Assembly: GCF_003182275.1 (NCBI RefSeq)
Contig: NZ_QGTR01000003.1
Span: 186,001 to 250,000 of the forward strand
Reading direction: 5' to 3'
From: Hoeflea marina
GTDB lineage: Bacteria; Pseudomonadota; Alphaproteobacteria; Rhizobiales; Rhizobiaceae
Length of the DNA: 64,000 bases
Below the pieces are notes generated by a model. It worked only from the letters and a program-made list of their open reading frames with translations, ran no database searches and was not told the origin of the DNA. The position numbers and the translations under genes are program-made. This document shows positions 41,672 through 58,348 of this stretch, piece after piece. Position 1 is the first letter of the stretch. Each line of letters begins with the position of its first letter.

Positions 41672-42676
41672 TCAGCCGAGGATTTCGCTCACAGCCACGG
41701 CCCGGCCTTCCTTGACCGATTGCAGCGCCGCCTCGGCAAGCGCCAGCGCCATCAGCCCGTCCTGGCCGTTGGGCGACGGCGCCTTGCCGTTCTTGACCAC
41801 TTCCACGAAGGCGGCGATCTCGGCGGCGTAGGCGTCGGTGTAGCGGGTCATGAAGAAGTCATGCAGCGGCGGTCGCGTGTAGCCGGTCCTGGTGGCGATC
41901 TCCACCGAGATCGGGCGCTGGTTCTCGATCGCCACCGACCCGGTCGAGCCGTGCACCTCCAGCCGCTGGTCATAGCCGTAGCTGGCGCGGCGTGAATTGG
42001 AGATCGAGCAGTGGCGGCCCGATTTCGTGGTCAGCACCACCGAGACGCTGTCGTAGTCGCCGAGTCTTGCGATCTCCGGATCGGTCAGCACCGAGGCGGT
42101 GGCGAAGACCGACACCGGCTCCTCGCCGAGCACGAAGCGGGCCATGTCGAAATCGTGGATGGTCATGTCACGGAAGATGCCGCCCGACACCGCAATGTAG
42201 TCGGCGGGCGGCGCGCCGGGGTCGCGGGAGATGATCTGCACCATCTCGACATCACCGATGGCGCCCTCGTCAATCGCCTTGCGGACGGCGGCGAAATGCG
42301 GGTCGAAACGGCGGTTGAAACCCACCATCAGCTTGCCGCCGGTGCTCTCGACGGTCCTGAGGCACTCCCTGACCCGGTCGAGCGACAAGTCGATCGGCTT
42401 TTCGCAGAACACCGCCTTGCCGGCGCGGACGAAGCGTTCGATCAGGTCGGCATGAGTGTTGGTGGGAGTGCAGATCACCACGGCGTCGATGTCGGCGGCC
42501 AGTTCGATGTCTTCGATCGACCGGACCTCGCAGCCGTAGTGGCTGGCGATGTCGGACGCGGCCCCGGGCATCGCGTCGGCGACCGCGGCCAGCGTCGCGT
42601 CGGGATTTGCATAGATCGCCTTGGCATGGACCTTGCCGATCCGGCCGGCGCCCAGAAGGGCGAAATGAAGTGTCAT
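41672..42676 (-). CDS. iolG: Inositol 2-dehydrogenase (Gfo/Idh/MocA family)
   Basis: A 334-residue oxidoreductase. The Rossmann motif GAGRIGKVH is at residues 8-16, the family lysine lies in the EKPIDL motif, and the active-site GGIFRDMTIHDFDMARF is typical of myo-inositol 2-dehydrogenases. The product would be scyllo-inosose. No other iol genes are beside it, but a degenerate fragment of a sugar ABC-ATPase lies immediately upstream, which suggests remains of a larger inositol locus. Related family members use other polyols, so the substrate is probable, not certain. Confidence 0.82.
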   Translation of the reverse strand: MTLHFALLGAGRIGKVHAKAIYANPDATLAAVADAMPGAASDIASHYGCEVRSIEDIELAADIDAVVICTPTNTHADLIERFVRAGKAVFCEKPIDLSLDRVRECLRTVESTGGKLMVGFNRRFDPHFAAVRKAIDEGAIGDVEMVQIISRDPGAPPADYIAVSGGIFRDMTIHDFDMARFVLGEEPVSVFATASVLTDPEIARLGDYDSVSVVLTTKSGRHCSISNSRRASYGYDQRLEVHGSTGSVAIENQRPISVEIATRTGYTRPPLHDFFMTRYTDAYAAEIAAFVEVVKNGKAPSPNGQDGLMALALAEAALQSVKEGRAVAVSEILG

Positions 42677-43192: not shown

Positions 43193-44719
43193 TTACATCA
43201 CGGCGCCCATCTGCCAGGGCACGAACTCGGCGCCGCCGAAGCCGAGATTTTCCGAACAGGTCTTCTCGCCCGAGGCGACGCGAATGAAGAGCTCGAAGAG
43301 CTCGCGGCCCTTTTCCTCAAGGCTGACGCCGTCGGTGATGATGTCGCCGCAGTTGATGTCCATGTCCTCGGACATGCGGCCGTACATTTCGGTGTTGGTG
43401 GCGAGCTTGATGCAGGGGGTGGGCTTGTAGCCCGAGACCGAGCCGCGGCCGGTCGTGAAGGCGATCAGATTGGCGCCCGAGGCGATCTGGCCGGTGACCG
43501 AGCAGGGATCGTAGCCGGGGCTGTCCATGAAGACGAAGCCGTGCTCGGTGACAGGCTCGGCAAATTTGTAGACCTGCGTCAGCGGCGCGGTGCCGCCCTT
43601 GGCGACGGCGCCAAGCGACTTTTCCAGGATGGTGGTCAGGCCGCCCTTCTTGTTGCCGGGCGACGGGTTGTTGTCCATCTCTCCGCCATTGCGCGCCGTG
43701 TAATCCTCCCACCAGCGGATGCGCTCGACGATCTTCTCGCCAACTTCCGGCGTTACCGCACGGCGGGTGAGCAGATGCTCGGCGCCGTAGATTTCCGAGG
43801 TTTCCGACAGAATCGTGGTGCCGCCATGGGCCACCAGCATATCCGACGCGGCGCCCAGAGCCGGATTGGCGGTGATGCCGGAATAGCCATCGGAGCCGCC
43901 GCACTGCATGCCGATCATCAGTTCGCTGACCGGCGCAGGGGCGCGCGCCGTCTCGTTCACCCTGGCCGCCATTTCGACCAGCAGCTCGACGCCGCGCTCG
44001 ATCGAGCGGCGGGTGCCGCCGGTCTGCTGGATTGTCATGTACTTGAAATTGCCGTCCGGGCGCATGCGGCCGCGCCCGACGATGTCCGGGATCTGCATGA
44101 CCTCGCAGCCGAGGCCGATGAGCAGGATGGCGCCGAAATTCGGATTGTGGGCATAGCCCTGCAGCGTCCGGAACAGGGTCTCGTAGCCTTCGTCCTTGCC
44201 GGACATGCCGCAGCCGGTGCCGTGCACGATCGGCACCACGCCGTCGACATTGGGGAACCGGTCGAGCAGCCCCTGCTTCTCCACTGCCTCGGCGATGAAG
44301 CGGGCCACCGACCCCGAACAGTTGACCGTAGTGAGAATGCCCAGATAGTTCCGCGTGCCGACCTTGCCGTCGGCGCGGTGGTAGCCCATGAACGTGCGGG
44401 CCTCGTTCGGCGCCGGCAACTGGCGGTGCTCAGTGGCAAAGGCAAAATCCTGGCTGTGGTCGCCCATGCCGAGATTGTGCACATGAATGTGTTCGCCAGG
44501 GGTGATGTCGACCGTGGCGGTGCCGATGATCTGGCCGTAGCGGAAGGCCTGCTCACCCCTGGCAATGGCGCTGGTGGCGATCTTGTGGCCGCGCGGAATC
44601 GCTGCCGGCAAGGGTGCCGCCAGCTCGGCAAGGACTTCGCCGACGGCCAGATCCTTGAGCGCGATAATGAGATTGTCGTCGGCGTGCAGGCGTATCGTGG
44701 TGGGCTGTACGGTTGTCAT
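43193..44719 (-). CDS. UxaA-family altronate dehydratase-like enzyme
   Basis: A 508-residue dehydratase: an N-terminal SAF domain (about residues 8-95, with HIHVHNLGMGDH) and a C-terminal UxaA domain (GYHRADGKVGTRNYLG, IVHGTGCGMSG, MQCGGSDGYSG). The family dehydrates aldonates or aldarates (altronate, galactarate) to 2-keto-3-deoxy acids using a metal. The ATG at 44719 is preferred; start codons further upstream exist. It is divergent from a GntR regulator and shares an operator-like site with the rest of the sugar cluster, so the substrate is probably the aldonate made by that cluster's lactonase. The sulfolactate lyase SuyAB is related but fits less well. Confidence 0.85.
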   Translation of the reverse strand: MTTVQPTTIRLHADDNLIIALKDLAVGEVLAELAAPLPAAIPRGHKIATSAIARGEQAFRYGQIIGTATVDITPGEHIHVHNLGMGDHSQDFAFATEHRQLPAPNEARTFMGYHRADGKVGTRNYLGILTTVNCSGSVARFIAEAVEKQGLLDRFPNVDGVVPIVHGTGCGMSGKDEGYETLFRTLQGYAHNPNFGAILLIGLGCEVMQIPDIVGRGRMRPDGNFKYMTIQQTGGTRRSIERGVELLVEMAARVNETARAPAPVSELMIGMQCGGSDGYSGITANPALGAASDMLVAHGGTTILSETSEIYGAEHLLTRRAVTPEVGEKIVERIRWWEDYTARNGGEMDNNPSPGNKKGGLTTILEKSLGAVAKGGTAPLTQVYKFAEPVTEHGFVFMDSPGYDPCSVTGQIASGANLIAFTTGRGSVSGYKPTPCIKLATNTEMYGRMSEDMDINCGDIITDGVSLEEKGRELFELFIRVASGEKTCSENLGFGGAEFVPWQMGAVM

Positions 44720-44788
44720 CGAGCTTTCCATGAGTGTAATAGCCCAACCCCGCAAGCCGGCATCGGCTTGACAGAATGCAGGCGCTAG

Positions 44789-44800
44789 CTAACATATTAG
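44789..44800. promoter_or_regulatory. Operator-like site 1, CTAACATATTAG
   Basis: This 12-mer ends one base before the gntR ATG (44802) and lies in the divergent gap to the UxaA-family gene. The extended form continues TATG, giving CTAACATRYTAGYRTG in common with the sites at 49420 and 54112. The position over the gntR start suggests autorepression by that regulator. Confidence 0.6.
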
Positions 44801-44801
44801 T

Positions 44802-45536
44802 ATGCTACAAGGTGAGGATACTCCTCTGCAAGAGCCAATTCCCCGCAGACCCCTGCTTTCCCCGCTTGATCAGTTCCCGGGGTCGCTGTCCAACAAGGTC
44901 TATCTGTCGCTCAAGCAGGCGATCCTGTCGCTGGTTTTCCGCCCCGGCGAAGTCCTGCAGAAATCCGAGATCTGCGATGAACTGGGCGTTTCGCGCTCGC
45001 CCGTGGCCGAAGCGGTTGCGCGGCTGGGTGCCGAAGGCCTGGTCGATATTGTGCCGCAGGCCGGCACCTTCGTGGCACGATTCTCGATGCAGGAAATCCG
45101 CGAAGGCGCCTTCCTGCGCGAAGCGCTGGAGCTTGCCGCAGTCGAGACGGTGGCCGAGACTATCACCGAGGAGCAACTGGTGCTGCTCCGGCGCAATATC
45201 CGGCTCCAGGAGGTGCTGCTGGCCGACGGGGACGTTCCCGGTTTCTACCAGACCGACGCGCAGATGCACGAGCTGATCCTTTCCTTCACCGGCTTTCGCC
45301 GGCTTGCCTCGCTGGCGGACACATCCTGGGTCCATGTCAACCGCGCCAGGCGTCTCAACCTTCCCTCGCCGGGCCGCATCCAGGCGACGCTCGAGGAGCA
45401 CCGGGCCATCGTCGCCGCACTGGAGGCACGCGATCCGCAGGCAGCACGCGAGGCCACCCGGCACCATCTGCGGCAACTGATCACCTTCCTCGAACCGCTG
45501 ATCAACGAGCGTCCGGAGCTATTCGCCGCCGGCTAG
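44802..45536 (+). CDS. GntR-family regulator with FCD domain
   Basis: A 244-residue regulator. The winged helix-turn-helix lies at about residues 30-95 (SEICDELGVSRSPVAEAVARL) and the FCD ligand domain at about 105-235. FCD regulators usually bind sugar acids or related metabolites. It is divergent from the UxaA-family dehydratase and begins right after an operator-like 12-mer that recurs at two other divergent promoters in the sugar cluster. It is therefore the likely local regulator, probably a repressor released by an aldonate. Confidence 0.88.
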   Translation: MLQGEDTPLQEPIPRRPLLSPLDQFPGSLSNKVYLSLKQAILSLVFRPGEVLQKSEICDELGVSRSPVAEAVARLGAEGLVDIVPQAGTFVARFSMQEIREGAFLREALELAAVETVAETITEEQLVLLRRNIRLQEVLLADGDVPGFYQTDAQMHELILSFTGFRRLASLADTSWVHVNRARRLNLPSPGRIQATLEEHRAIVAALEARDPQAAREATRHHLRQLITFLEPLINERPELFAAG

Positions 45537-45565
45537 AACATTTCCGGAGAACGTGAATTTCATTT

Positions 45566-45631
45566 CGTCGCAGGACAATGCGACGAATCAGGAACCTGGA
45601 GAGCTTCTGCGGTTCAGTGAAAAGCAGAAGC
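45566..45631 (+). other. Two hairpins in the leader of the isomerase gene
   Basis: CGTCGCA/TGCGACG (45566-45585, six-base loop) and GCTTCTGC/GCAGAAGC (45603-45631, 13-base loop) fall between gntR and the isomerase gene. Neither is followed by a U tract. They may be a readthrough control element or part of a dispersed repeat. Confidence 0.4.
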
Positions 45632-45661
45632 GCTCAAGACTGAAGCCATCGAAAGGCGCCG

Positions 45662-46645
45662 ATGACCGACATCCCCAATCGCCCCCGCTATGCGGCCCGG
45701 CTGAACGCCTTCAAGGTCGGCCTGCCGGGCAGACCGACCGTGGAGGACATGCTGGCGCGCGCGGCATCGGTGCCGGGACTGGATGCGGCGGACCTGAATT
45801 TTCCCGATCATTTCGAGCACCACACCCCGGCGGAGCTGTCACGGCTGCTGGCCGGTCACGGCATGGCGCTCAACGGGCTGGCGATGCGCTATTACACCGA
45901 CCCCGGCTTCCGGCTCGGCGCCTTCACCCATCCCGACAGGGCCGTGCGGCAGGCGGCGCTGGACATCACGCGGCGTGGGCTGGATGCCCTGGCATCGATG
46001 GGCGGCAGCCTGATGACCCTGTGGATGGGACAGGATGGGGTCGACTATTCCTTTCAGGGCGACTACGGGCGGATGTGGGACGATACGATCGAGGCCCTCG
46101 CCGCGGTCGCCGACCATAATCCGGCGCTTTCCATCGCCATCGAGTACAAGCCCAACGAGCCGCGCGCCTTTGCCTTGATGCCGGATGTCGGGGCGACGCT
46201 GCTGGCCGTCGGCGAAGCCGGCCGGACCAATCTGGGCGTCACGCTGGACTTTGCCCATGTGCTGTATGCCGACGAAATCCCCGCCCAGTCGGCCAGGCTG
46301 GTGGCGCGGCATTCGAAGCTGATGGGCGTGCATCTCAACGATGGCTACGGCAAGCGCGACGACGGGCTGATGGTCGGCTCGGTGCATCCGGTGCAGACGG
46401 TGGAACTGCTCGTCGAATTGGAGCGGATGGGCTATGACGGGGTGATCTATTTCGACACGTTCCCCGATCATGGCGGGCTCGATCCCTGCGCGGAGGCGGC
46501 GACCAACATCCGCATGACCGACCGGCTGCGGGCGGTCGCCGCGCGCCTCGTCGACGACCCCGACCTTGCCGCGGCCATGGCCCGCCAGGACGCCACCCGG
46601 AGCCTCGCGATTGTTTCCGCGGCCCTGTACGGACGCGCCAGGTGA
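45662..46645 (+). CDS. TIM-barrel sugar isomerase/epimerase
   Basis: A 327-residue AP-endonuclease-2-like TIM barrel. Likely metal ligands are the glutamate in IAIEYKPNEPR, the aspartate in VTLDFAHVLYA, and the histidine and asparagine in GVHLNDGYGKRDDGL. This resembles rhamnose/xylose isomerase-like sugar isomerases. The ATG follows GAAAGG. Its stop overlaps the kinase gene downstream by four bases (GTGA), implying isomerase then kinase acting on the same sugar. The sugar cannot be named from sequence alone. Confidence 0.75.
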   Translation: MTDIPNRPRYAARLNAFKVGLPGRPTVEDMLARAASVPGLDAADLNFPDHFEHHTPAELSRLLAGHGMALNGLAMRYYTDPGFRLGAFTHPDRAVRQAALDITRRGLDALASMGGSLMTLWMGQDGVDYSFQGDYGRMWDDTIEALAAVADHNPALSIAIEYKPNEPRAFALMPDVGATLLAVGEAGRTNLGVTLDFAHVLYADEIPAQSARLVARHSKLMGVHLNDGYGKRDDGLMVGSVHPVQTVELLVELERMGYDGVIYFDTFPDHGGLDPCAEAATNIRMTDRLRAVAARLVDDPDLAAAMARQDATRSLAIVSAALYGRAR

Positions 46646-47547
46646 GCGTCTTCGTCTGCGGCTCGCTGCATCTCGACATCATTATTGATGCGCCGCATCT
46701 GCCGCGGCTCGACGAGACCGTGACCGGCGAGGCGGTCCGCTATGCCTTCGGCGGCAAGGGCGGAAATCAGGCGGTGGCGGCGGCGCGCATGGGCGCCATG
46801 GTGCAGATGGCCGGCCGGGTCGGCAGCGATGAATTCGGCACCACGCTGCTGGCCGGGCTGGCGGAAGCCGGCGTGGATGCATCAGCGGTGAGCCGGGATC
46901 CAGGCGCCTCCGGGATGAGCGTGGCCATCAGCGCGCCGGACGGAGGCTACGGCGCGGTGATCGTCTCCGCCGCCAATCTCAGGATCGACCCGGCGGTGCT
47001 CTCCCTTCCCCCGCACACGACGGTCGTGCTGCTGCAGAACGAAATCCCGGAAGCGGTCAATCTCGCCGTCGCCCGCAAGGCGCGTGCCAGCGGCAGCAGC
47101 GTGGTGCTCAATGCCGCACCGGCGCGCGGCATCGGCGCCGAGCTGATGGACTGCGTCGATGTGCTGGTTGTCAACCGTGTGGAGGCCGCGGACATGCTCG
47201 ATCTGCCGGAGCCCGATCTCGATGCCGAGTCCGCGGCCAGGGCGCTTGCGGCATCGGGTCCGGCGAGCGTCATCGTCACGCTCGGCGGTCAGGGGCTGGT
47301 TGTCAGCGACAGCGAGGGGACGCATCGTTTTGCTGCCCATGCGGTCGGGGTGATTTCGACCCATGGGGCGGGGGACGCGTTTCTGGGGGCATTTGCCGCC
47401 GAGCGGGATCGCGGCGCATCACTCAGCGCCGCCGCCGCCTTCGGCCAGGCCGCCGCCGCACTGCATGTGTCGACGCCGGTGGCCGAACGCGGCCGGATCA
47501 GCCAAGCCTGCGTCGATGCATTGCTGGATCACGGCTCAAGGCGATAG
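46642..47547 (+). CDS. PfkB-family carbohydrate kinase
   Basis: A 301-residue ribokinase-like kinase. The N-terminal substrate motif is GGKGGNQAVAAARMG; the C-terminal ATP/catalytic motif is HGAGDAFLGAFAA. The GTG start overlaps the isomerase stop. It converges on the lactonase gene with 19 bases of overlap at their 3' ends. It would phosphorylate the keto-sugar made by the isomerase, giving a phosphorylating branch beside the oxidative route. A second PfkB kinase lies 9 kb away in the same cluster. Confidence 0.82.
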   Translation: MSVFVCGSLHLDIIIDAPHLPRLDETVTGEAVRYAFGGKGGNQAVAAARMGAMVQMAGRVGSDEFGTTLLAGLAEAGVDASAVSRDPGASGMSVAISAPDGGYGAVIVSAANLRIDPAVLSLPPHTTVVLLQNEIPEAVNLAVARKARASGSSVVLNAAPARGIGAELMDCVDVLVVNRVEAADMLDLPEPDLDAESAARALAASGPASVIVTLGGQGLVVSDSEGTHRFAAHAVGVISTHGAGDAFLGAFAAERDRGASLSAAAAFGQAAAALHVSTPVAERGRISQACVDALLDHGSRR

Positions 47548-48374
47548 AAGGCCGCAGCCGTGCCGCCGAAGATCAGCTCCTGCGCGTCCTCGCCAAGCCC
47601 GGACGTCAGTTGCCGTGCGGCGGCATGCCAGTCTTCGTAATCGGCGCGCAGGCGGCACACCGGCCAGTCCGATCCCCACATCACCCGCCTGGGTCCGAAA
47701 ACATCGAGAATGTGGTCGGCATAGGGGCGGAGATCATCGACGGTCCAGTCCGCGCCGGCCTCGGTGATCATGCCGGAGAGTTTGCAGAAGGCGCCGGATT
47801 CGCCCGCAATGCGCGCCATGCCGTCGGCCCAGGAGGCGAAGCTGTCCTCGCTGTGATTGCCGATCTCGGGCTTCATGCCGTGATCGACCACCACGCGCAG
47901 CTCGGGATACCGCCGGATGAGGGCGAGAAAATTGGCCATGTGGCGCGGATAGCCCAGCGCATCGAGGCTCAGCCCGAGGTCGACGAGGGTTTCGAAGCCC
48001 CACTGGACGTCGGGCCGCAGCATCCAGCCCAAATCCTCGATGTCCTGGATCATCGGTCGGACCCCGAGGAATTTCGGGTTCAGGGACAGCCTCTCCAGTT
48101 CGGCACGGTCGGTGGCGCGCTCGAAATCGACCCAGCCCACGACACCGGCCACGAAGGGGGTCGTATCGGCGATGCCGAGCATGTATTCGGTCTCGTCCAC
48201 CGTCGGCGCCGCCTGCACCAGCACGGTGCCGTCAATGCCGAGCTTTCGAAGCACCGGCTCGAGGTCCGCCGGGCGATAGACCTGCGAGAGCACGGGATCG
48301 TCCTCCGGCATCCAGCCGTAATCGCCGCGGGCCGGATTCCAGAAATGCTGATGGGCATCGATTTTCACGGTCAT
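47529..48374 (-). CDS. Amidohydrolase-family lactonase (L-fuconolactonase type)
   Basis: A 281-residue metal-dependent hydrolase of the amidohydrolase-2 group. It opens with the metal motif DAHQHFW and ends with MWGSDWPVC, the aspartate signature of sugar lactonases such as L-fuconolactonase. The ATG at 48374 follows GAGGAC; the frame is open a little further upstream. The gene is 4 bases downstream of the aldo/keto reductase, and the two would oxidise a sugar to its lactone and open it. The natural lactone is inferred. Confidence 0.82.
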   Translation of the reverse strand: MTVKIDAHQHFWNPARGDYGWMPEDDPVLSQVYRPADLEPVLRKLGIDGTVLVQAAPTVDETEYMLGIADTTPFVAGVVGWVDFERATDRAELERLSLNPKFLGVRPMIQDIEDLGWMLRPDVQWGFETLVDLGLSLDALGYPRHMANFLALIRRYPELRVVVDHGMKPEIGNHSEDSFASWADGMARIAGESGAFCKLSGMITEAGADWTVDDLRPYADHILDVFGPRRVMWGSDWPVCRLRADYEDWHAAARQLTSGLGEDAQELIFGGTAAAFYRLEP

Positions 48375-48378
48375 GTCC

Positions 48379-49404
48379 TCATACCGGCGCGTCGCCCGCA
48401 AGCAGGCCTTCAGATTTCAGGTCGATCCACAATGCCGGCGGAATTTCGGCTGCCGCGGCGGCAAGGTTGGAGGTCATCTCGTTGACCCCCTGTCCGCCCG
48501 GGATCACCGAGACCACGGCCGGGTGACGCAACGGGAACTGGAAGGCGGCGTCGACCAGCCGCACGCCGTGACTGGCGCAGATGGTCTCGATGCGGGCGAC
48601 GCGATTAAGAACGGCTTGCGGCGCGGGGTCGTAGTTGTAGAAGGCGCCGGGGCGGGCGCCGGTGGCGAGCACGCCGGAATTGTAAGGCCCGCCGATGACA
48701 ATGCCGATGCCACGGCTCGCCGCCAGCGGGAGAAAGCTCTCGAGCGATTCCTGCTCCAGCAGCGTGTAGCGGCCGGCCAGCAGGAACAGATCGAAATCGC
48801 CGCGTTCGGTCAGCCACTGACAGGGCTGCCATTCGTTCACGCCGGCGCCGAAGCCCTTGATGACACCCTGATCGCGCAGCGACAGCAGCGCCCTGTACCC
48901 TCCCGACATCAGTTCCTCAAGTCTCGCCTCAAGTGCCGCCTGGCTGCCGTGATTGAAGACATCGAGGTCGTGGGCGAAGAGAATGTCGATGCGTTCGACG
49001 CCGAGCCGCTCGAGCGAAAACTCGACCGAACGCATGACGCCGTCATAGCCATAATCGTAGACTTCCTTGCGCGCAGGCACCTCGAACCACTTTCCGATGC
49101 CGTCGCGCTCCTCCGGCCTGCAGGCCTCAAGCAGTCGGCCGACCTTGGTGGAGAGCACATAGGCGTCGCGCGGCTTGCCGCGCAGGAAGCGATTGAGGCG
49201 GGTCTCCGACAATCCCAGGCCATAGAGCGGCGCGGTGTCGTAGTAGCGCACGCCGGCCTGCCAGGCGAGATCGAGGATGGCATCCGCCTCGTCGTCGGAA
49301 ATCGCCCGGTAGAGATTGCCGAGCGGCGCGGTTCCGAAGCCGAGTTCGGTGAAATCCAGACCGCCATTGCCGATCCTGTCCCAGTGACGCGTCCTGATTT
49401 GCAT
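48379..49404 (-). CDS. Aldo/keto reductase, L-fucose/aldose 1-dehydrogenase type
   Basis: A 341-residue AKR. The catalytic tetrad fits D and Y in RYYDTAPLYG, K in LSTKVGR and H in ILFAHDLD. The group includes D-threo-aldose (L-fucose) dehydrogenase, which oxidises C1 of sugars to lactones with NAD(P)+. The ATG at 49404 lies 16 bases from an operator-like site shared with other promoters of the cluster. It is the first gene of a two-gene unit with the lactonase, so sugar oxidation is favoured over pyridoxal dehydrogenase activity. Confidence 0.82.
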   Translation of the reverse strand: MQIRTRHWDRIGNGGLDFTELGFGTAPLGNLYRAISDDEADAILDLAWQAGVRYYDTAPLYGLGLSETRLNRFLRGKPRDAYVLSTKVGRLLEACRPEERDGIGKWFEVPARKEVYDYGYDGVMRSVEFSLERLGVERIDILFAHDLDVFNHGSQAALEARLEELMSGGYRALLSLRDQGVIKGFGAGVNEWQPCQWLTERGDFDLFLLAGRYTLLEQESLESFLPLAASRGIGIVIGGPYNSGVLATGARPGAFYNYDPAPQAVLNRVARIETICASHGVRLVDAAFQFPLRHPAVVSVIPGGQGVNEMTSNLAAAAAEIPPALWIDLKSEGLLAGDAPV

Positions 49405-49419
49405 GGGATCCTCCAGTGA

Positions 49420-49431
49420 CTAACATGCTAG
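49420..49431. promoter_or_regulatory. Operator-like site 2, CTAACATGCTAG
   Basis: This copy lies in the divergent gap between the aldo/keto reductase (ATG at 49404) and the SIS protein gene. It is continued by TGTG in the extended 16-mer. CTAACATGCTAG is close to its own reverse complement, CTAGCATGTTAG. The rest of the gap to 49573 shows no other clear element. Confidence 0.62.
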
Positions 49432-49573
49432 TGTGATTCATGCAGTCGTCCACCCCCCTTGGGGAACCGTCCCGCGATTTCGTGCATGACATGAACAGTT
49501 TGGACCGGCAACGGTTCCAGTCCGAGGCTCGGGGATCGTCCGCCCCGGCCCCCGCCTATCGAGAGGAGACGTC

Positions 49574-50119
49574 ATGGGACAGTACACGCAGGCGCTCAAC
49601 GAGCTGGGTCGGGTGGCGGAAGCCATCGACCCTCGCGCCGTCGACCGGAGCCTCGGCCTGATCGCCGGCGCGGGCAGGATCCTGGCCTATGGCTGCGGCC
49701 GCGAGGGCCTGCAGCTGCGCGGGCTGGCGATGCGGCTCCACCATCTCGGCCTGAGCGTCGCCATGCAGGGGGACATGGCGGCCCCGCCGCTCGGACCAGG
49801 AGACCTGTTCCTGTGTTCGGCCGGTCCAGGGGACCTGTCGACGGTGACGGCGCTGATGCGGGTGGCCCATGACGCAGGCGCCCAAGTGCTGCTGCTGACG
49901 GCCGAGCCCGACAAGGCGCCCGGAAGGTGGGCCACGCAGATCCTCACCATTCCCGCCCAGACCATGGCGCGCGATGTCGGCGGCGCTTCGATGCTGCCGA
50001 TGGGCTCGCTCTACGAGGGCGCCCTTTTCCTGCTGTTCGAGATCATGGTGCTGGAATTGCGCGACCGTCTCGGCGAGACAATGGAAACGATGCGGGCGCG
50101 GCACACCAACATGGAATGA
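49574..50119 (+). CDS. SIS-domain protein, phosphohexuloisomerase-like
   Basis: A 181-residue single SIS domain. The glycine-rich GAGRILAYGCGREGLQLRGLAMRL corresponds to the phosphosugar-binding N-terminal half, and GDLFLCSAGPGDLSTV to the second loop. The closest functional group is 6-phospho-3-hexuloisomerase. It is the only gene on this strand between the divergent promoter and the convergent transporter operon. It probably isomerises a sugar phosphate made by one of the PfkB kinases. The specific reaction is unknown. Confidence 0.72.
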   Translation: MGQYTQALNELGRVAEAIDPRAVDRSLGLIAGAGRILAYGCGREGLQLRGLAMRLHHLGLSVAMQGDMAAPPLGPGDLFLCSAGPGDLSTVTALMRVAHDAGAQVLLLTAEPDKAPGRWATQILTIPAQTMARDVGGASMLPMGSLYEGALFLLFEIMVLELRDRLGETMETMRARHTNME

Positions 50120-50138
50120 CCGACACCGGTCGCGGCAG

Positions 50139-51056
50139 CTACTTGACCGCGCCGGCGGCCATGCCCTTGATGATGTAGCGCTCCAGCACGATGCCGATGA
50201 CGATCAGCGGCAGGATGGCGGCAAACGAGAGGGCCGCCATCGACCACCAGCTGATGCCCTGGCTGCCGGTCTGGCTCGCCACCATCACCGGCAGGGTATT
50301 GGCATGGGTGGAGGTCAGCAGCGCCGCGAAGAAATACTCGTTCCAGGTCAGCACCAGCGACAGGATGAAGGCGGCGACCATGCCAGGCAGGGCGATCGGC
50401 AGCACGATCGAGACGAAGGCACCCCAGATCGACAGGCCGTCGACAAGGGCCGCCTCCTCGAGTTCCGTGGGGATGCCGGCGAACTGGTCGCGCATGATCC
50501 AGATGACGATCGGCAGCACGGTCAGCGTGTAGAGCAGAATCAGCCCGATCTGCGTGTCCAGCAGGGCCAGCGAGCGGTAGAGCACCAGGAAGGGCAGCGC
50601 CAGCACCACCGGTGGCAGGATCAGCTGGCTCAGGAAGAAGAAGGAAATGTCGGAATTCTTCATGTAGCCGAAGCGGTAGGAAAACCGCGACAGGCCGTAG
50701 GCGGCGAGACTGCCGAGGACGACCGCCAGCGCCGAGGACGTCACCGAGGTGACGGCCGAATTGTAGAAGCGCTTGAGGAACTCGTCGCGCACGGTCGATC
50801 CGGCGCCGATGGTGTCCGGCGACAGGCCGAGCGACTTCCAGCCCAGCCATTTCGGCGAAAAATCCCACCACGGCACCATGTTGCCCTTCATGACATCGGG
50901 CGCCATCTTGAACGAGGTGGTGATGGTCCAGTAGATCGGGAACAGGCAGATGATCGCCCACAGCACCAGTGCGCCGTAGACGGCGATGCGGCCGGTCCAC
51001 CACCTGGCCCGGTGCGCCAGATCCGTATTGGAATCGCGAAAGATCTGCTCGGTCAT
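50139..51056 (-). CDS. Sugar ABC transporter permease, MalG type
   Basis: A 305-residue permease with six membrane segments. The EAA motif region reads EEAALVDGLSIWGAFVSIVLPIALPG, and the usual periplasmic loop after segment 1 contains VPWWDFSPKWLG. It pairs with the MalF-type permease whose gene ends 55 bases upstream. The ATPase is encoded separately on the other strand. Context in the fucose-type cluster suggests a 6-deoxy or neutral monosaccharide. Confidence 0.88.
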   Translation of the reverse strand: MTEQIFRDSNTDLAHRARWWTGRIAVYGALVLWAIICLFPIYWTITTSFKMAPDVMKGNMVPWWDFSPKWLGWKSLGLSPDTIGAGSTVRDEFLKRFYNSAVTSVTSSALAVVLGSLAAYGLSRFSYRFGYMKNSDISFFFLSQLILPPVVLALPFLVLYRSLALLDTQIGLILLYTLTVLPIVIWIMRDQFAGIPTELEEAALVDGLSIWGAFVSIVLPIALPGMVAAFILSLVLTWNEYFFAALLTSTHANTLPVMVASQTGSQGISWWSMAALSFAAILPLIVIGIVLERYIIKGMAAGAVK

Positions 51057-51111
51057 GTCGGTCCGTCGGTTGGGCCGGGATCTCGGCCGTGTCGTTGAGC
51101 TCGCCCGGTCG

Positions 51112-52230
51112 TCAGTATTGCGGCCGCATCCAGCGCTCGGCGATCTTCATCAGGATGGTCATGGCGATCACGATCAGCACCAGATAGACCATAGCCAGAA
51201 GCGTGCCGTAGCCGACATTGGAGCGGTCGCGGTATTCGCGGAAGATGAAACTCGTGACGCTGTCGGTGGCCCCGCCCGGCCCGCCCGACGTCACAGTGAT
51301 GATGATGTCGGCAAGCTTGAGCTTGAAGATGATGCGGATCAGGATGGCGGTGATCGAGACCGGCAGCATCAGCGGGAACGTCACCTCCCAGAAGCCGCGC
51401 CAGGCATTGGCGCCGTCAACCTTGGCGGCTTCCTGGACCTCCTTGGGAATGGCCTGCAGCCCGGCCAGGATCATGATCATCATGAAGGGGATGAAGGTCC
51501 ATGCGTCCATGATCATGATGCTGGCGCGCGCCAGTTCAGGACTGCCGAAGAAGGAAGGCTGCTCCCAGCCCAGTTCGCGCGCCAGACGCGCCACCGGGCC
51601 GAAGCGGACCTCCATCATCGACTTGCCGATCATCCAGCTGACCGCCACCGGTGACAGCATCAGCGGCATGAGGAAGGCGACACGGAAGAATTTCCGCGCC
51701 CGGATCTGGGAGTTGAGCAGCAGCGCCAGGCCGAAGGCGATGGCGTATTCGACCAGGATGGCAAGCGAGTACCAGACCATGTTGGTCAGCGCGTTCCAGT
51801 AGAACGGATCGCGCCACATCTGGCGAATGTTGTCGAGACCGTTGAAGGTGCGGCCGGTGGGCGAGGACAGGTTCCAGTCCGAGAACGCGATCACCAGTCC
51901 GAACAGCAGTGGAAAGACCACCATGGAAATGACGAACAGGGCCGCCGGCAGCACGAACAATGTGCGCTTGCCCTGCTCGCCGCGGATGAGAACCTGCGAC
52001 CAGCACAGGCAGACCGCCCAGAGAATGTAGGCATAGAGCGTCGGCCGCCAGTTCGAGTATCCGAAACCGGCGAGGCCGGTTTCCTGCAGGGTTTGCGTGA
52101 GCCCGGTCAGCGCCAGGACAGCGGCGGAGCCCCAGACGATCGCGCGGCCGAAGGCGATGCGGCGGGTCGAGATGTTGTCGTTGGTGACGACGTGAAGAAG
52201 ATCGCCTTCGTTGGCCAATGCCTGCCCCAT
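51112..52230 (-). CDS. Sugar ABC transporter permease, MalF type
   Basis: A 372-residue permease. It has two extra N-terminal membrane segments (about 25-45 and 60-75) before the usual six, and the EAA loop EVQEAAKVDGANAWRGF. The ATG at 52230 is chosen because a 10-bp hairpin separates it from the binding-protein stop; a longer frame runs into that hairpin. The ribosome site is weak, which fits low expression after the hairpin. Confidence 0.85.
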   Translation of the reverse strand: MGQALANEGDLLHVVTNDNISTRRIAFGRAIVWGSAAVLALTGLTQTLQETGLAGFGYSNWRPTLYAYILWAVCLCWSQVLIRGEQGKRTLFVLPAALFVISMVVFPLLFGLVIAFSDWNLSSPTGRTFNGLDNIRQMWRDPFYWNALTNMVWYSLAILVEYAIAFGLALLLNSQIRARKFFRVAFLMPLMLSPVAVSWMIGKSMMEVRFGPVARLARELGWEQPSFFGSPELARASIMIMDAWTFIPFMMIMILAGLQAIPKEVQEAAKVDGANAWRGFWEVTFPLMLPVSITAILIRIIFKLKLADIIITVTSGGPGGATDSVTSFIFREYRDRSNVGYGTLLAMVYLVLIVIAMTILMKIAERWMRPQY

Positions 52231-52244
52231 GCTCAAACGGAGAA

Positions 52245-52268
52245 AGGCCGGCGGTTGCCCGCCGGCCT
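52245..52268 (-). terminator. Hairpin after the sugar-binding-protein gene
   Basis: AGGCCGGCGG and its complement form a perfect 10-bp stem with a four-base loop, followed by TTTCTCC in the direction of transcription. It starts 6 bases after the stop of the solute-binding-protein gene and lies before the permease start. Position and form match the hairpins after tauA and dctP. Confidence 0.62.
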
Positions 52269-52274
52269 CGATGA

Positions 52275-53942
52275 TCACATGCCCAGCGAAGCCTTGTAGA
52301 GCTTGACCTGGCTGTCACGGCCGATCTGATCGGTGATCTTCTCCCAGGCCGCGGCGATCGCGTCGGCGGTTTCCTGCGCCGACTTGTACTGGCCGGCAAA
52401 TCCCTTGGCCAGTTCGTCCTCGGCCACCGAGTAGTACTGGAAGATGCCGGGAATGCGCGGTTCGATGGCGGCGTTGGGATGGTTGTAGCTGTCGAGGTTG
52501 GAGCCGAGATAGTCCTCGACGAAGGCCTCGTCGTAGCCCGCCGCAACCCATTCCGGATAGTTGAACTGCGAATTGCGATAGGGCTGGAAGCCCGACGGGT
52601 AGGCAGCCATCCAGAGCGCGATGTCCTTGCCGCCGAGATGGGCTGCGCAGGACCAGGCGGCCTTGTGCTTCTTCTCGTCGCTGTCGACCCGCGACATGAC
52701 ATAGACGCCCCAGCCGATATAGGCCATGTTCGGCGCATAGTTCGGTCCGGACGGCAGCGTGTCCCACTGGCCGGTGGCGTTGTTGTAGACATCGTCGGAT
52801 CCGGGCAGGATCGAGAAGCCGACGACATCGCCGACGACGGAGCTGTCCGATGTCCGCGCGTTGGAACCGACATCGCCCCACCAGCTGATCATCGACCCGG
52901 TGCCGGCCAGGAACTGCTGGAAGGCGGTCGTGCCGGGATCGGCGTTGATCTGGTCGGCCGGCTGGGCTGGCATCACGTCCATGACGTCCTGGATGGCCCG
53001 CACGAAGGCCGGATTGTTGACGTAGGGCTTCATGGTGTCCGGATCGAACAGCCAGGCGGCGTTGTCGGGGTGCTTGGCATAGGCGGTGGCGCGGCTTTCC
53101 AGGAAGTAGAAGCCGAAACCGCCCCAGCCCTTGAGCGGATCGAGATAGCCGTGCGCGTCAAGTCCGGTGAGCGGATCCTTCTTCCCCTTGAGGAACTTGG
53201 TGGTGGCCTGCACCTGCTGCCAGGTCGCCGGCACGCCGAAGTCGCCGGAATTGCCCTCCGACGTCCAGGCGGCCTTGAAGTCGGCGTTGTCGAAATAGTC
53301 CTTGCGGTAGGCGAAGGTGTGGCAGTCGCCATCGATGGAGATGCGATAGGTCTTGCCGTCCCAAGTGCCGACCGGAGCCTTGAGATAGCCCACATAGTCG
53401 TCCATATCGATCTGCTGCTTGACCCAGTCCGGCATCTCGGAGAGCAGGCCGCGACCGGCCGTGTCGCCCTCGAAGGGGGCTCCCATTTCAATGACGTCGA
53501 AGTCGACCGTGCCCGTGGCGATCGATTGCTGCAGGCGGGCATTGTAGTCGGCCTGCGCCAGGTCAACCCAGTTGATCTTGGCGCCGGTGTAGGTTTCCCA
53601 TGCCTTCAGGAACCCGCGGAAGAGCACGTTGTGCTGGTTCTGGTTGTTGAGCCCCATGAAGGTCAGTTCGACGCCAGCGAACTCGCCCTCGGCAACATTG
53701 GCCCTGGTCGCTCCAAGGCACATCTCGCCGACCTTCTGCCAGTCGGCATCGGTTGGCGACCCGGCACCGACGCCGGGTATCTTCAGAATTTCGGCCCGCA
53801 GATTGTCCTGGGCAAAGGCCATGCCTCCGCCAAGACCCAGTCCGCCCAGGGCGGCAACTCCGCCGATACCCGCGGCGGTCTGCAACAGGCGCCGCCGGGT
53901 CATACCCATGCTGACGGCCCGATTGTAATCCTCGATTTTCAT
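52275..53942 (-). CDS. Large extracellular solute-binding protein with Tat signal
   Basis: A 555-residue binding protein, longer than the usual 400-450 of family 1. The N-terminal TRRRLLQTAAGIGGVAALGG is a twin-arginine signal, with probable cleavage after AFAQ. The mature part is rich in tryptophan and aromatic residues, as in sugar-binding proteins. GGAGGAG precedes the ATG at 53942, the strongest ribosome site in the region. It heads an operon with both permeases and is divergent from the ATPase gene, with an operator-like site between. The size recalls GlpV-like proteins, but only one ATPase gene is present. Confidence 0.85.
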   Translation of the reverse strand: MKIEDYNRAVSMGMTRRRLLQTAAGIGGVAALGGLGLGGGMAFAQDNLRAEILKIPGVGAGSPTDADWQKVGEMCLGATRANVAEGEFAGVELTFMGLNNQNQHNVLFRGFLKAWETYTGAKINWVDLAQADYNARLQQSIATGTVDFDVIEMGAPFEGDTAGRGLLSEMPDWVKQQIDMDDYVGYLKAPVGTWDGKTYRISIDGDCHTFAYRKDYFDNADFKAAWTSEGNSGDFGVPATWQQVQATTKFLKGKKDPLTGLDAHGYLDPLKGWGGFGFYFLESRATAYAKHPDNAAWLFDPDTMKPYVNNPAFVRAIQDVMDVMPAQPADQINADPGTTAFQQFLAGTGSMISWWGDVGSNARTSDSSVVGDVVGFSILPGSDDVYNNATGQWDTLPSGPNYAPNMAYIGWGVYVMSRVDSDEKKHKAAWSCAAHLGGKDIALWMAAYPSGFQPYRNSQFNYPEWVAAGYDEAFVEDYLGSNLDSYNHPNAAIEPRIPGIFQYYSVAEDELAKGFAGQYKSAQETADAIAAAWEKITDQIGRDSQVKLYKASLGM

Positions 53943-54111
53943 GCAACTCCTCCTCCCAGTAGAGTTTCCGCCAAATGCTTCTGGCGGTCCGGCCAAAGCA
54001 GGCGTCAGCTCCGCCAGCGGAGCATGGAAGCCTGAAAATCCAAAGAACCGGGTCCGGATCCAACCCGGACTAAAGTTGAACATTTCAGCCTTGTTGCATG
54101 CTGTCAAGCAT

Positions 54112-54123
54112 CTAACATGCTAG
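54112..54123. promoter_or_regulatory. Operator-like site 3, CTAACATGCTAG
   Basis: This copy lies in the 261-base divergent gap between the binding-protein and ABC-ATPase genes. It overlaps the perfect palindrome CATGCTAGCATG, and another ATGCT-GTCA-AGCAT repeat lies just upstream. The extended 16-mer agrees with sites 1 and 2, so the transporter and the downstream catabolic genes are probably controlled by the same regulator. Confidence 0.62.
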
Positions 54124-54203: not shown

Positions 54204-55268
54204 ATGGCAGACGTCAGTATCCATGCGTTGCGCAAGGCCTATGGCGCGCTCGAAGTCATTCACGGCGTGGACGTCGAGATCCCCGACGGCGAGTTCGTCG
54301 TGCTCGTGGGGCCGTCGGGATGCGGAAAATCCACCCTTCTGCGCATGATCGCCGGGCTTGAGGGCATCAACGGGGGGACCATCAGCATCGGCGGCCAGGT
54401 GGTCAACAATCTGCCGCCGGCCGAGCGCAACATCGCCATGGTGTTCCAGAACTACGCCCTCTATCCCCACAAGACGGTGGCGGCGAACATGGGCTTCGCG
54501 CTGAAGATGCAAAAGATGGACAAGCCTCGGATCGAGGAAGAGGTCAACCGCGCCGCCGACATCCTCGGCCTCAAGCCCTATCTCGGCCGCTACCCGCGTG
54601 AACTCTCCGGCGGCCAGCGCCAGCGCGTGGCCATGGGCCGGGCCATCGTGCGCAACCCGAAGGTCTTCCTTTTCGACGAGCCGCTGTCCAATCTCGACGC
54701 CAAGCTCCGGGTGCAGATGCGCGCCGAGATCCGCGAACTGCACCAGCGACTTTCGACCACGACCGTCTATGTCACCCATGACCAGATCGAGGCGATGACC
54801 ATGGCCGACCGCATCGTGGTGATGCGCGACGGCCATATCTCGCAGATCGGCGCGCCGCTGGAGCTCTATGACCGGCCAGCCAATGCCTTCGTCGCCGGCT
54901 TCATCGGCTCGCCGTCGATGAACCTGATCCATGGCGCGGTCAAGCGCTCCGGCGGACAAGTCACGGTCGAGGCCGAGGGCCTGTCGCTCCCGGCGCCCGA
55001 CCTTGAGGGGATGACCGAGGGCCGCAAGGTGATCTTCGGCATCCGGCCCGAGCACCTCGATCTCGACAATCGCGGATTTGAGGCTTCGGTCGCCGTGGTC
55101 GAGCCGACAGGCGCGGAAACCCACGTGGTGCTTCGCGTTCCGGGCCGCGAAGTGGTCGCCGTGTTCCGTGAACGCCATGCCTTCCGGCCCGGCGATGTGG
55201 TTCGGCTGCTGCCGCAGCCCGCACTCGTGCACATGTTTGACGCAGACAGCGGCGCCCGAATCGGGTGA
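54204..55268 (+). CDS. Sugar ABC transporter ATP-binding protein, UgpC/MalK type
   Basis: A 354-residue ATPase with a C-terminal TOBE/regulatory domain (about 235-354). Walker A is GPSGCGKST, the signature LSGGQRQR, Walker B VFLFDEP and the switch VTHDQIEA. The ATG at 54204 follows a GGGGGG-AAG ribosome site; the frame is open further upstream without similarity. It is separated by a divergent promoter from its permeases and binding protein, and is followed at once by the FucU-like gene, so it is transcribed with the catabolic genes. Confidence 0.92.
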
Positions 55269-55306
55269 AGTCGGCTGCAATGAAGGCCAACGAGGAGGAG
55301 GACAGA

Positions 55307-55759
55307 ATGCTCAAGGGGGTCGACCCGCGACTGAATGCCGAGGTGCTCTACGCGCTTCGGGCGATGGGGCATGGCGACACGCTGGTGATCGCCGACACCA
55401 ACTTTCCCTCCGAATCCGTTGCACGCCAGACAGTGATCGGCGACCTGCTGCGGATGGACAACCTGACGGCTGCCGAAGCGGTCGAGGCCGTGCTCTCCGT
55501 GCTCCCGCTCGACACCTTCGTCGATGATTTCGCAGGGCGGATGGAGATGGTCGATGCGCCGAAGGAGATTCCGGCCGTCCAGGGAGAGGTGCAGAAGGCG
55601 ATCGACGCGGCCGAAGGACGGCCGAGGCCGATGATCGCCATCGAGCGGTTTGCCTTCTACGACAAGGCCAGGGAGGCCTTTGCTGTCATCCAGACGGGCG
55701 AGCGCCGCTTCTACGGCTGCTTCATCTTCCGCAAGGGCGTCATTCCGCCAGAGGCCTGA
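55307..55759 (+). CDS. RbsD/FucU-family sugar mutarotase
   Basis: A 150-residue mutarotase that interconverts anomers of L-fucose or a similar sugar. The N-terminal AMGHGDTLVIADTNFP holds the catalytic histidine, and YGCFIFRKGV near the end holds the conserved tyrosine region. GAGGAGGAGGA precedes the ATG at 55307. An upstream GTG overlapping the ATPase stop is possible but adds unconserved sequence. It supplies the beta-anomer for the aldose dehydrogenase. Confidence 0.86.
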   Translation: MLKGVDPRLNAEVLYALRAMGHGDTLVIADTNFPSESVARQTVIGDLLRMDNLTAAEAVEAVLSVLPLDTFVDDFAGRMEMVDAPKEIPAVQGEVQKAIDAAEGRPRPMIAIERFAFYDKAREAFAVIQTGERRFYGCFIFRKGVIPPEA

Positions 55760-55769
55760 GGAGACCTTC

Positions 55770-56690
55770 ATGTCCCGTGTCGTCATTCTCGGCGTCTTCG
55801 TCGCCGACACCGCCTATCGCGCCGACCGCGCCCCCAGAATGGGCGAGACCATTCTCGGCCAGAGTTTTGCGCTCGGTCCCGGTGGCAAAGGGTCGAACCA
55901 GGCCGTGGCTGCGGCCAGGGCGGGGGCGGACACCCATTTCATCACCCGGCTCGGGCGCGACACCTTCGCCGACATGGCGCTCAAGACCTGGGCGGAGGCC
56001 GGCGTGACGCCCGCCGTCACGCAGCATGACGACAGCTATACCGGAGCTGCCTATATCTTCGTGGAGGCCGCGACCGGCAACAACGCCATCATCGTCTGCC
56101 CGGGCGTTGCGGGCCTGATCTCGGAAGACGACATCGAGGCGCGCCGCGATCTGATTTCGGGCGCCGCGGTGTTCGTGACCCAGCTGGAACAGCCGCTGCC
56201 GGCGGCGATGCGGGCCTTGCAGATCGCCCGCGAGGGCGGCGCGAGAACGGTGCTCAATCCCGCGCCCGCGGCCCCGCTGCCAGACGGCATGCTGGCGCTG
56301 TGCGACTATGTGACGCCGAACGAATCCGAGGCCGAGGCGCTGACCGGCCTTCCGGTGACCACCATCAACGAAGCCATCGAGGCGGCGAAGGCTCTGGTAG
56401 CCGCCGGCGCCGGTGCCGCCATCATCACGCTGGGCGAGAAGGGCGCGCTTTATCATGATGGCGGTGTGACCGTGCATGTGGACGCCTACAACGCGGGGCC
56501 CGTGGCCGAAACCACCGGAGCGGGCGACGCCTTCAACGGCGGCTTTGCCGCGGCTCTCGCCCGCGGCGAGCAGCCGGTGGACGCGGTGCGCTACGGCTGC
56601 GCCACCGCCGGAATCTCCGTGACCCGGCGCGGCACCGCGCCGTCGATGCCCTCGGCGGACGAAATCGCGGCGCTGATGGCGCGCGGCTGA
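55770..56690 (+). CDS. Ribokinase-family kinase
   Basis: A 306-residue PfkB kinase. GPGGKGSNQAVAAARAGAD is the N-terminal signature and TTGAGDAFNGGFAAAL the catalytic one. The ATG at 55770 lies 10 bases after the mutarotase stop and follows GAGGAGA. It is closer to true ribokinases than the other PfkB kinase in this cluster. It sits in the operon with FucU, the SDR and the FAH hydrolase, which are non-phosphorylating steps, so its substrate is not obvious. Confidence 0.84.
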   Translation: MSRVVILGVFVADTAYRADRAPRMGETILGQSFALGPGGKGSNQAVAAARAGADTHFITRLGRDTFADMALKTWAEAGVTPAVTQHDDSYTGAAYIFVEAATGNNAIIVCPGVAGLISEDDIEARRDLISGAAVFVTQLEQPLPAAMRALQIAREGGARTVLNPAPAAPLPDGMLALCDYVTPNESEAEALTGLPVTTINEAIEAAKALVAAGAGAAIITLGEKGALYHDGGVTVHVDAYNAGPVAETTGAGDAFNGGFAAALARGEQPVDAVRYGCATAGISVTRRGTAPSMPSADEIAALMARG

Positions 56691-56743: not shown

Positions 56744-57478
56744 ATGACAATGACGCTCTCGGGAAAGACCGCTCTGGTGACCGCCGCCGGCCAGGGCATC
56801 GGCCGAGCCACGGCGCTGGCCTTCGCCAAGGCGGGGGCCATTGTGCACGCCACCGACATCAACGAGGCGCTTCTCTCCGCCTATGCTGGGGAAACCGGCA
56901 TCACCACCCGCAAGGTCGATGTGCTCGATTCCGCCTCGGTCAACGCCGCGGTGGCCGGGATCGGCGCGGTGGATATCCTGTTCAACTGCGCCGGCTTCGT
57001 CCATTCCGGCACGGTTCTGGAAGCGTCCGACGAGGATCTCGATTTCGCCTACGACCTCAACGTTAAGTCGATGGTGCGCACCATCCGCGCGGTGCTGCCG
57101 GGCATGTTGCAGCGCAAGAACGGCGTCATCATCAACATGTCGTCGGTGGCCTCGAGCATGACCGGCGTGCCCAACCGCTTCGCCTATGGCATGAGCAAGG
57201 CCGCGGTGATCGGGCTCACCAAATCGGTCGCCGCCGACTATGTCGGCAAGGGCATCCGCTGCAACGCCATCTGCCCCGGCACCGTCGAAAGCCCCTCGCT
57301 GCAGGACCGCATGCGGGCGCAGGGCGACTATGACACGGCGCGCGCCGCCTTCATCGCCCGCCAGCCGATGGGCCGGCTGGGCCAGCCGGAGGAAATCGCC
57401 GAGCTGGCGCTTTATCTCGCCGGCGCAAGCTTCACCACCGGACAGGCCTATGCCATTGATGGCGGCTGGACGATCTGA
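56744..57478 (+). CDS. SDR dehydrogenase, 2-keto-3-deoxy-L-fuconate type
   Basis: A 244-residue SDR. The cofactor loop is the unusual TAAGQGIGRA rather than TGxxxGIG, as in the DHRS6/2-keto-3-deoxyfuconate dehydrogenase branch. The catalytic residues are in INMSSVASS and YGMSK. In the fucose pathway it oxidises C4 of 2-keto-3-deoxy-L-fuconate to the 2,4-diketo acid, and the FAH hydrolase gene follows by 24 bases. The ATG at 56744 follows GGAGACGG. Confidence 0.85.
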   Translation: MTMTLSGKTALVTAAGQGIGRATALAFAKAGAIVHATDINEALLSAYAGETGITTRKVDVLDSASVNAAVAGIGAVDILFNCAGFVHSGTVLEASDEDLDFAYDLNVKSMVRTIRAVLPGMLQRKNGVIINMSSVASSMTGVPNRFAYGMSKAAVIGLTKSVAADYVGKGIRCNAICPGTVESPSLQDRMRAQGDYDTARAAFIARQPMGRLGQPEEIAELALYLAGASFTTGQAYAIDGGWTI

Positions 57479-57502: not shown

Positions 57503-58348
57503 ATGAAATTCGTACGATACGGGGCCGAGGGCGCCGAGAAGCCGGGCATGATCGATGCATCGGGACAGTTGCGCGACCTGTCGGGCCACATCGCCGATCT
57601 GTCGGGCGCGACGCTGGATCCCTCGCGTCTGGCCGAGATCGGCGAGATCGATGCATCCAGCCTGCCCAAGGTCGACGGCATGCCCCGCCTCGGGCCCTGC
57701 GTCGCGGGCACTGGCAAGTTCATCTGCATCGGGCTCAACTACTCCGATCACGCCGCCGAAACCGGGGCCACGGTGCCGCCGGAGCCGATCATCTTCATGA
57801 AGGCCACCTCGGCGATTTGCGGTCCCAATGACAATCTCGTCATTCCGCGCGGCTCCGAAAAGACCGACTGGGAGGTCGAGCTCGGCGTGGTCATCGGCAA
57901 GACCGCCAAATATGTCAGCGAAGACGAGGCCATGGACTACGTGGCCGGCTACTGCACCATCCATGACGTGTCCGAGCGCGCCTTCCAGGCCGAGCATTCG
58001 GGCCAGTGGACGAAGGGCAAGTCGGCCGACACCTTCGGCCCCACCGGCCCATGGCTGGTGACCAGGGACGAGGTGGCCGATCCACAGAATCTGGGCATGT
58101 GGCTGACGGTCAACGGCGAGAAAATGCAGAACGGCTCGACCCGGACCATGGTCTACGGTGTGAAGTTCCTGGTTTCCTATCTCAGCCGCTTCATGTCGCT
58201 CAGGCCGGGCGACATCATCTCCACCGGCACGCCGCCCGGCGTCGGCCTCGGCATGAAGCCGCAACGCTTTCTCAAGCCAGGCGACGTCGTCGAACTCGGG
58301 GTCGAAGGCCTCGGCACCCAGAAGCAGACCTGCGTCGCCGACACATAG
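57503..58348 (+). CDS. FAH-family hydrolase, 2,4-diketo-3-deoxy-L-fuconate hydrolase type
   Basis: A 281-residue fumarylacetoacetate hydrolase-fold enzyme. Metal ligands fit the pair of glutamates in DWEVELGVVIGK and the aspartate in CTIHDVSERAFQ. C-C bond hydrolases of this branch split 2,4-diketo-3-deoxy sugar acids into pyruvate and a hydroxyacid (lactate from fuconate). The order SDR then FAH is typical of that route. GGGAGAGAG precedes the ATG. It is the last gene before a bidirectional-type hairpin. Confidence 0.88.
   Translation: MKFVRYGAEGAEKPGMIDASGQLRDLSGHIADLSGATLDPSRLAEIGEIDASSLPKVDGMPRLGPCVAGTGKFICIGLNYSDHAAETGATVPPEPIIFMKATSAICGPNDNLVIPRGSEKTDWEVELGVVIGKTAKYVSEDEAMDYVAGYCTIHDVSERAFQAEHSGQWTKGKSADTFGPTGPWLVTRDEVADPQNLGMWLTVNGEKMQNGSTRTMVYGVKFLVSYLSRFMSLRPGDIISTGTPPGVGLGMKPQRFLKPGDVVELGVEGLGTQKQTCVADT

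Follow-up and report, generated by a model that had tools for sequence, protein, structure and literature searches.

A probable, conserved FCD-GntR regulon under its own control for a fucose-type sugar pathway, with a compact promoter and an operator core of unusual order

Does a single regulator govern the sugar gene cluster in the 64 kb of DNA analysed here (the window) and, if so, through which sites and for which sugar? An exact search of the window finds the 12-mer CTAACATRYTAG only at 44789, 49420 and 54112, as the preliminary description had stated, with no occurrence across 100 dinucleotide shuffles of the window. The 16-mer extension likewise has three exact matches, and five when up to three mismatches are allowed, the extra two overlapping the copy at 44789. 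Each copy had been described as lying between a divergent pair of genes, and this holds: the pairs are the UxaA-type dehydratase and gntR, the aldo-keto reductase and an HxlB-like SIS protein, and the binding protein and a MalK-type ATPase (Table 1). We count 15 genes in the runs starting at the three sites, where about sixteen had been proposed as controlled. The letters originally given for the operator fit the copies, whereas the consensus among relatives is instead the palindrome CTAACATGTTAG. When the whole genome (5.26 Mb) was scanned, as the preliminary description had suggested, one further exact copy of the 12-mer was found, upstream of a TRAP transporter (G000:C4:594859), and the backward-read pattern, used as a control, gave two matches. 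With up to three mismatches, CTAACATGTTAGTATG matches the genome eight times versus seven for its backward pattern; with up to two, five matches are left, one at each of the three copies in the window and two at the TRAP site.

Table 1. Genes, proposed operators and proposed promoter elements of the cluster, with the basis of each assignment or its setting
Feature	Position	Strand	Basis or setting
UxaA/GarD-type sugar-acid dehydratase (uxaA)	43193..44755 (longest ORF)	-	Pfam; galactarate dehydratase model below cut-off; 6u7l
TTGACA, proposed gntR -35	44768..44773	+	16 bp before TAACAT (44790-44795)
Operator 1, CTAACATATTAG	44789..44800	.	Between uxaA and gntR; holds gntR -10 box
FCD-GntR regulator (FucR-type), proposed operator binder	44802..45536	+	Pfam GntR and FCD
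Xylose-isomerase-like TIM barrel protein	45662..46645	+	Pfam/NCBIfam
PfkB-family sugar kinase	46642..47547	+	Pfam/NCBIfam
Amidohydrolase, probable fuconolactonase	47529..48401	-	Model 208 bits, cut-off 400
Aldo-keto reductase, probable L-fucose or L-galactose 1-dehydrogenase	48379..49404	-	Pfam, best solved relative
Operator 2, CTAACATGCTAG	49420..49431	.	16 bp before aldo-keto reductase start
HxlB-like SIS protein	49574..50119	+	NCBIfam, neighbourhood in L070
Two ABC permeases and binding protein (the latter as longest ORF)	50139..54107	-	Pfam
TTGACA beside operator 3, proposed -35 of binding-protein side	54102..54107	-	Its -10 weak
Operator 3, CTAACATGCTAG	54112..54123	.	Between binding protein and MalK-type ATPase genes
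MalK/UgpC-type ATPase	54204..55268	+	Pfam/NCBIfam
FucU/RbsD-type mutarotase	55265..55759	+	Model 86.5 bits, cut-off 141
Second PfkB-family kinase	55650..56690	+	Pfam/NCBIfam
SDR, probable L-2-keto-3-deoxyfuconate 4-dehydrogenase	56744..57478	+	Best solved relative
FAH-family hydrolase, probable 2,4-diketo-3-deoxy-sugar-acid hydrolase	57503..58348	+	Best solved relative

The cluster genes, identified with Pfam and NCBIfam models, include all five folds of the non-phosphorylating L-fucose pathway (sugar dehydrogenase, lactonase, dehydratase, keto-deoxyfuconate dehydrogenase and diketo hydrolase), with the lactonase, dehydratase and mutarotase models below their cut-offs. The best solved relative of the SDR is an L-2-keto-3-deoxyfuconate 4-dehydrogenase (PMC11199699), while those of the FAH protein and the aldo-keto reductase are an L-2,4-diketo-3-deoxyrhamnonate hydrolase and an L-galactose dehydrogenase, respectively. 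Our best guess for the substrate is L-fucose; the proposed pathway does not account for the two kinases and the TIM-barrel protein. The sugar had been called uncharted, a label that does not stand: the enzymes match the oxidative pathway already known for L-fucose, and FucR sites are drawn in PMC5507952. We regard it as rather unlikely, although deserving of some weight, that the regulon is right and the substrate is another sugar with an identical configuration, for instance L-galactose or D-arabinose. The relative of the aldo-keto reductase and the three models below cut-off speak for such a sugar, as does the UxaA-type D-arabinonate dehydratase described in PMC6336799, which works best on D-arabinonate and has weak L-fuconate activity, other members of the type being assigned there to L-fuconate or L-galactonate by context; the FucU-type mutarotase, the fuconolactonase-like enzyme and the relative of the SDR speak for L-fucose.

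Two further features flank these genes. About 0.5 kb beyond uxaA, a Gfo/Idh/MocA dehydrogenase (41672-42676), which scores above the NCBIfam inositol 2-dehydrogenase cut-off, lies outside the regulon count. The neighbouring run at 58859-63971 holds an aldolase-SDR fusion, a SorC-type regulator, and IF-2B-family and APH-family genes that we take to be MtnA-like and MtnK-like, respectively, and it resembles a salvage cluster of its own for a deoxy- or thio-sugar.

The GntR protein scores above cut-off with both PF00392 (62.5 bits) and PF07729 (99.5 bits). Its residues D152, H156, H200 and H222 are conserved in 36/36 sequences and align with Asp/His residues in 3fms and 3sxy; an Asp and three His make up the metal site of many FCD domains. 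By its helix-turn-helix (HTH) and FCD domains and its putative metal-site residues, we assign the protein to the FCD regulators. The GT-N2-3-AC core is not seen in its proposed operator, as CTAACATGTTAG carries AC before GT on both strands. Loss of an Arg from the recognition helix (SPV[AST]EA) was considered as the cause of this odd core and fits the fucose group, but otherwise fails: GntR proteins beside the same 12-mer elsewhere retain the Arg, and the GntR of L099 (44% identical, no site) lacks it too.

Among relatives, the site is found with the regulator. When the GntR protein was searched in 61 genomes, 32 gave a match at E 1e-25 or better, and all 17 close-orthologue loci (L007-L023, with the window's own locus counted as L007) have at the start of gntR a CTAACATGTTAG-like site that differs at two positions or fewer. 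In the 13 more distant loci fetched (L024-L036), the site is exact in one and carries two mismatches in another. A scan of named contigs yielded 22 further loci, mostly from Rhodobacter, Tabrizicola and other Rhodobacterales, with two labelled only bacterium or Alphaproteobacteria, and the site is at gntR in every one (22/22, L048 with two mismatches). Combined, a copy with at most two mismatches stands at the start of the fucose-type gntR in 40/40 loci examined (the window, L008-L023, L028 and L037-L058); such retention of the own-gene site in orthologues is the pattern of an autoregulated local GntR regulon.

The motif and the regulator also tend to occur in the same genomes. We find CTAACATGYTAG in 20/61 genomes, comprising 17/17 with a GntR orthologue of at least 53% identity and 3/44 others (Fisher 2e-12, for genomes that are related and a cut-off chosen after the result was seen). 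The strand counts over the 61 genomes are 43 and 38, palindromes being counted twice, versus 5 and 5 for the backward pattern. Counting against the proposed pairing, G051 has a GntR relative 44% identical and no exact copy, while in G018 and G029 there are exact copies but no close GntR orthologue. A matrix trained on 78 sites outside the window (57 distinct) ranks the window's three sites first, at 27.8, 25.3 and 23.5 bits; the next-best stretch reaches 10.2 bits and overlaps the first copy, and the peak of 20 shuffles is 13.9. Because all training sites were picked at two mismatches or fewer, the matrix confirms rather than discovers. In the sites outside the window, both arms of the palindrome are conserved at three kinds of promoter.

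We mapped 35 loci, most of which were fetched because they hold a site; the three fetched for other GntR genes (L099-L101) have none. In most loci of relatives, the site lies between uxaA and gntR, and it is also seen before transporter genes. Where genes are displaced, the site goes with them: uxaA keeps its own copy when it is on another contig than gntR (G006 and G004; L082 and L097), the SDR gene of G030 retains one about 19 kb from gntR (L076), and in G041, whose regulator is only 36% identical, the FAH gene has its own copy (L086). Position, co-occurrence and these displaced genes all favour the earlier proposal that one FCD-GntR protein controls itself and the cluster, and its repressive part would follow from the geometry of the gntR promoter.

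There, the first copy had been noted next to the gntR start; more precisely, it ends one base before the ATG at 44802. For a promoter alignment, 36/40 loci passed a filter for an ATG at most three bases from the site and a long open frame with the HTH. TTGACA precedes the operator's TAACAT by 15-18 bp, with at least 5/6 matches, in 35/36 of these loci (28 exact), whereas in the shuffled upstream 70 bases, 5/6 is reached in 1.4% and 6/6 in 0.09%. The ATG follows the operator by one base in 36/36 filtered loci, where the filter allowed 0-3, and in 36/40 overall, and 12/36 loci, the window included, have no alternative in-frame start before the HTH. In the remaining four loci, the ATG is in frame in L058 with the gene split over two frames in the contig, is out of frame in L016 and L038, and is absent at this place in L022, which has a possible start further on, behind GAGGAG; judged by eye, all four have TTGAC before the operator. 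Since the operator contains the -10 box and the ATG is one base on, gntR is probably leaderless and self-repressed, its mRNA probably beginning at the start codon in most genomes, and it is from this placement of operator over promoter that we infer repression by GntR.

A symmetric promoter, with the palindrome serving as -10 both ways, was rejected: a reverse -35 with 5/6 matches at 15-19 bp is seen in 0/36 loci, and for a second -10-like hexamer 8 bp away, the best -35 at 15-19 bp matches only 2-4/6. For two uxaA genes that have a copy to themselves (L082, L097), nothing better than 3/6 stands where a -35 would be expected, and reverse promoter use for uxaA is a mere possibility.

The gntR layout recurs at permF genes of one lineage, where the ATG lies 1-2 bases after the operator in 5/7 loci. 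On the binding-protein side of operator 3, CTTGAC follows the operator by three bases in 11/11 loci. The aldo-keto reductase has the site before it in 26/34 relative loci holding the gene, with a weak -35 (at best 4/6 in 12/27); its absence from the other 8/34 (L044, L075, L077 and L089-L093) counts against control at this position. On the opposite side of operator 2, the window has the HxlB-like gene only, while BtpA and M42 genes are present in the two relatives examined, L043 and L070, and an FGGY kinase gene also in L070. In L070, the HxlB-like gene comes last after the BtpA, M42 and FGGY genes, in a run that starts right behind the site. By this gene content, the window may have lost three genes of the run, and control of the HxlB side by operator 2 is plausible.

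The 12-mer had been put forward as the mark of one regulon. It does mark the cluster, but not exclusively: the genus has FCD-GntR loci of two other kinds that carry it as well. The first, as annotated in L079, combines a DHDPS-family protein with an ILVD/EDD dehydratase (L078, L080 and L094 share its GntR), and CTAACATGTTAG lies near the FCD-GntR gene in all four; the site of this type reads CTGACATGTTAG in the window's own genome (G000:C1:1305313, L064:1501) and in G016. The second lies beside a TRAP transporter (annotated in L081, by similarity in L096). Because all 7 of the 61 genomes in which the DHDPS/EDD-type regulator is found also hold the fucose GntR, the binder at that site is ambiguous between the two regulators, and an operator common to paralogous FCD-GntR regulators is possible. 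Such loci, together with an AC-AT-GT core that is unusual for the FadR subfamily, lend something to the idea that another regulator, for example another FCD-GntR, binds the 12-mer and that the fucose-type GntR has a different target. We nevertheless judge this improbable, as the motif is in 17/17 orthologue genomes with 41/44 others lacking an exact copy, the site abuts the fucose-type gntR in 40/40 loci and is found also beside the 36% identical regulator of G041, and the DHDPS/EDD-type regulator occurs in so few genomes. That the 12-mer is a shared promoter element (a -10 region) and no operator would suit the -10 box it contains at gntR, but is hardly credible with both palindrome arms kept at three promoter kinds and at sites outside the window, with the 12-mer placed just before the -35 on the binding-protein side (11/11), and with its near confinement to regulator-bearing genomes.

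Several further sites were seen outside the cluster. The TRAP site of the window's own genome (L005:8860) lies before DctP/Q/M, with no GntR gene seen adjoining, and close orthologues of this TRAP transporter in six relatives have related, weaker sites upstream. At the TRAP locus, five genomes that have the fucose GntR reach at best 29.3, 27.4, 23.2, 21.8 and 18.7, two close-TRAP genomes that lack this regulator reach 19.7 and 16.6, and distant TRAP relatives in five genomes reach 3.3-8.6 (L114 was left out of scoring). The TRAP operon at G000:C4 may or may not be a fourth member of the regulon. At G000:C2:389754 (L066:1501), CTAATATGCCAGTATG (21.9 bits) precedes by about 100 bp a GntR-like frame that shares 29% identity with the window GntR. 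On a contig of G029, four copies of the 12-mer, one of them exact and the others near matches, fall within 7 kb (L085:352, 5364, 6094 and 7106), near an ABC transporter and without a close GntR orthologue.

The genome comparison shows that the site is conserved and where it lies, that it occurs together with the regulator, how the -35 is spaced and which genes are present; binding, repression, inducer, leaderless transcript and sugar are what we infer in the following model. Probably, the FCD-GntR protein at 44802-45536 has CTAACATGTTAG as its operator and would bind, as a dimer, in three promoter regions of a cluster for the import and oxidation of L-fucose or a closely related sugar. When the inducer is absent, GntR would cover the -10 box of its own promoter and block the neighbouring promoters; a sugar-acid intermediate, L-fuconate or L-2-keto-3-deoxyfuconate, would probably enter the FCD pocket and release it. 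The gntR promoter would be compact, with TTGACA as -35, 16 bp, TAACAT as -10 within the operator, the ATG one base on, and an mRNA that is probably leaderless. We also entertain a broader proposal, though we lean against it: a leaderless repressor gene may have its operator, -10 box and start codon fused in an element of about 16 bp that is kept at regulators 36% to 80% identical to the window GntR and reused at a permease gene, and the inverted AC-AT-GT core may define an FCD-GntR operator class common to at least three paralogous sugar-acid regulators, which possibly cross-regulate.

In summary, we regard as real a conserved FCD-GntR regulon, probably under its own control, that serves a fucose-type pathway and has a compact promoter and an operator core of unusual order. 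Across Rhodobacterales, it would offer a compact, testable fucose-type regulon, together with a clear operator, unlike the usual one in its core, for a group of FCD-GntR proteins. As one site serves as operator, includes the -10 box and adjoins the start codon, few base changes could probe autorepression and the leaderless start together. A core common to sister regulators also raises the question of how paralogous repressors separate their targets.

Our literature searches, which were limited by licence, found no paper with the 12-mer as text, and those on L-fucose, GntR and Rhodobacterales or on leaderless GntR autorepression found no title or abstract start describing the regulon. The phage lambda cI gene is a leaderless autoregulated repressor gene; gntR resembles it in the proposed transcription from the start codon and the operator at the promoter, while protein and DNA site are unrelated. 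For the fucose genes of a Rhodobacteraceae bin, FucR sites were predicted by Leyn et al. 2017 (PMC5507952), and that regulon shares with ours the genes of the L-fucose oxidative pathway, an ABC importer, predicted sites and a Rhodobacteraceae genome, the bin being credited with a complete pathway that includes L-fuconate dehydratase (FucD). Compared by gene content rather than by protein family or motif, our regulator may or may not be the same as this FucR. The FucR of Campylobacter jejuni (PMC12566272), likened here by its description only, is likewise the regulator of a fucose locus. The FCD repressors DgoR, LldR and UxuR combine, as here, a GntR HTH with an FCD domain, autoregulated divergent operons and a palindromic site (PMC4494728). 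In the same account, the usual site of the FadR subfamily is GT, two to three bases, and AC, with BioR and NanR as exceptions, whereas the order in the operator described here is AC, AT, GT.
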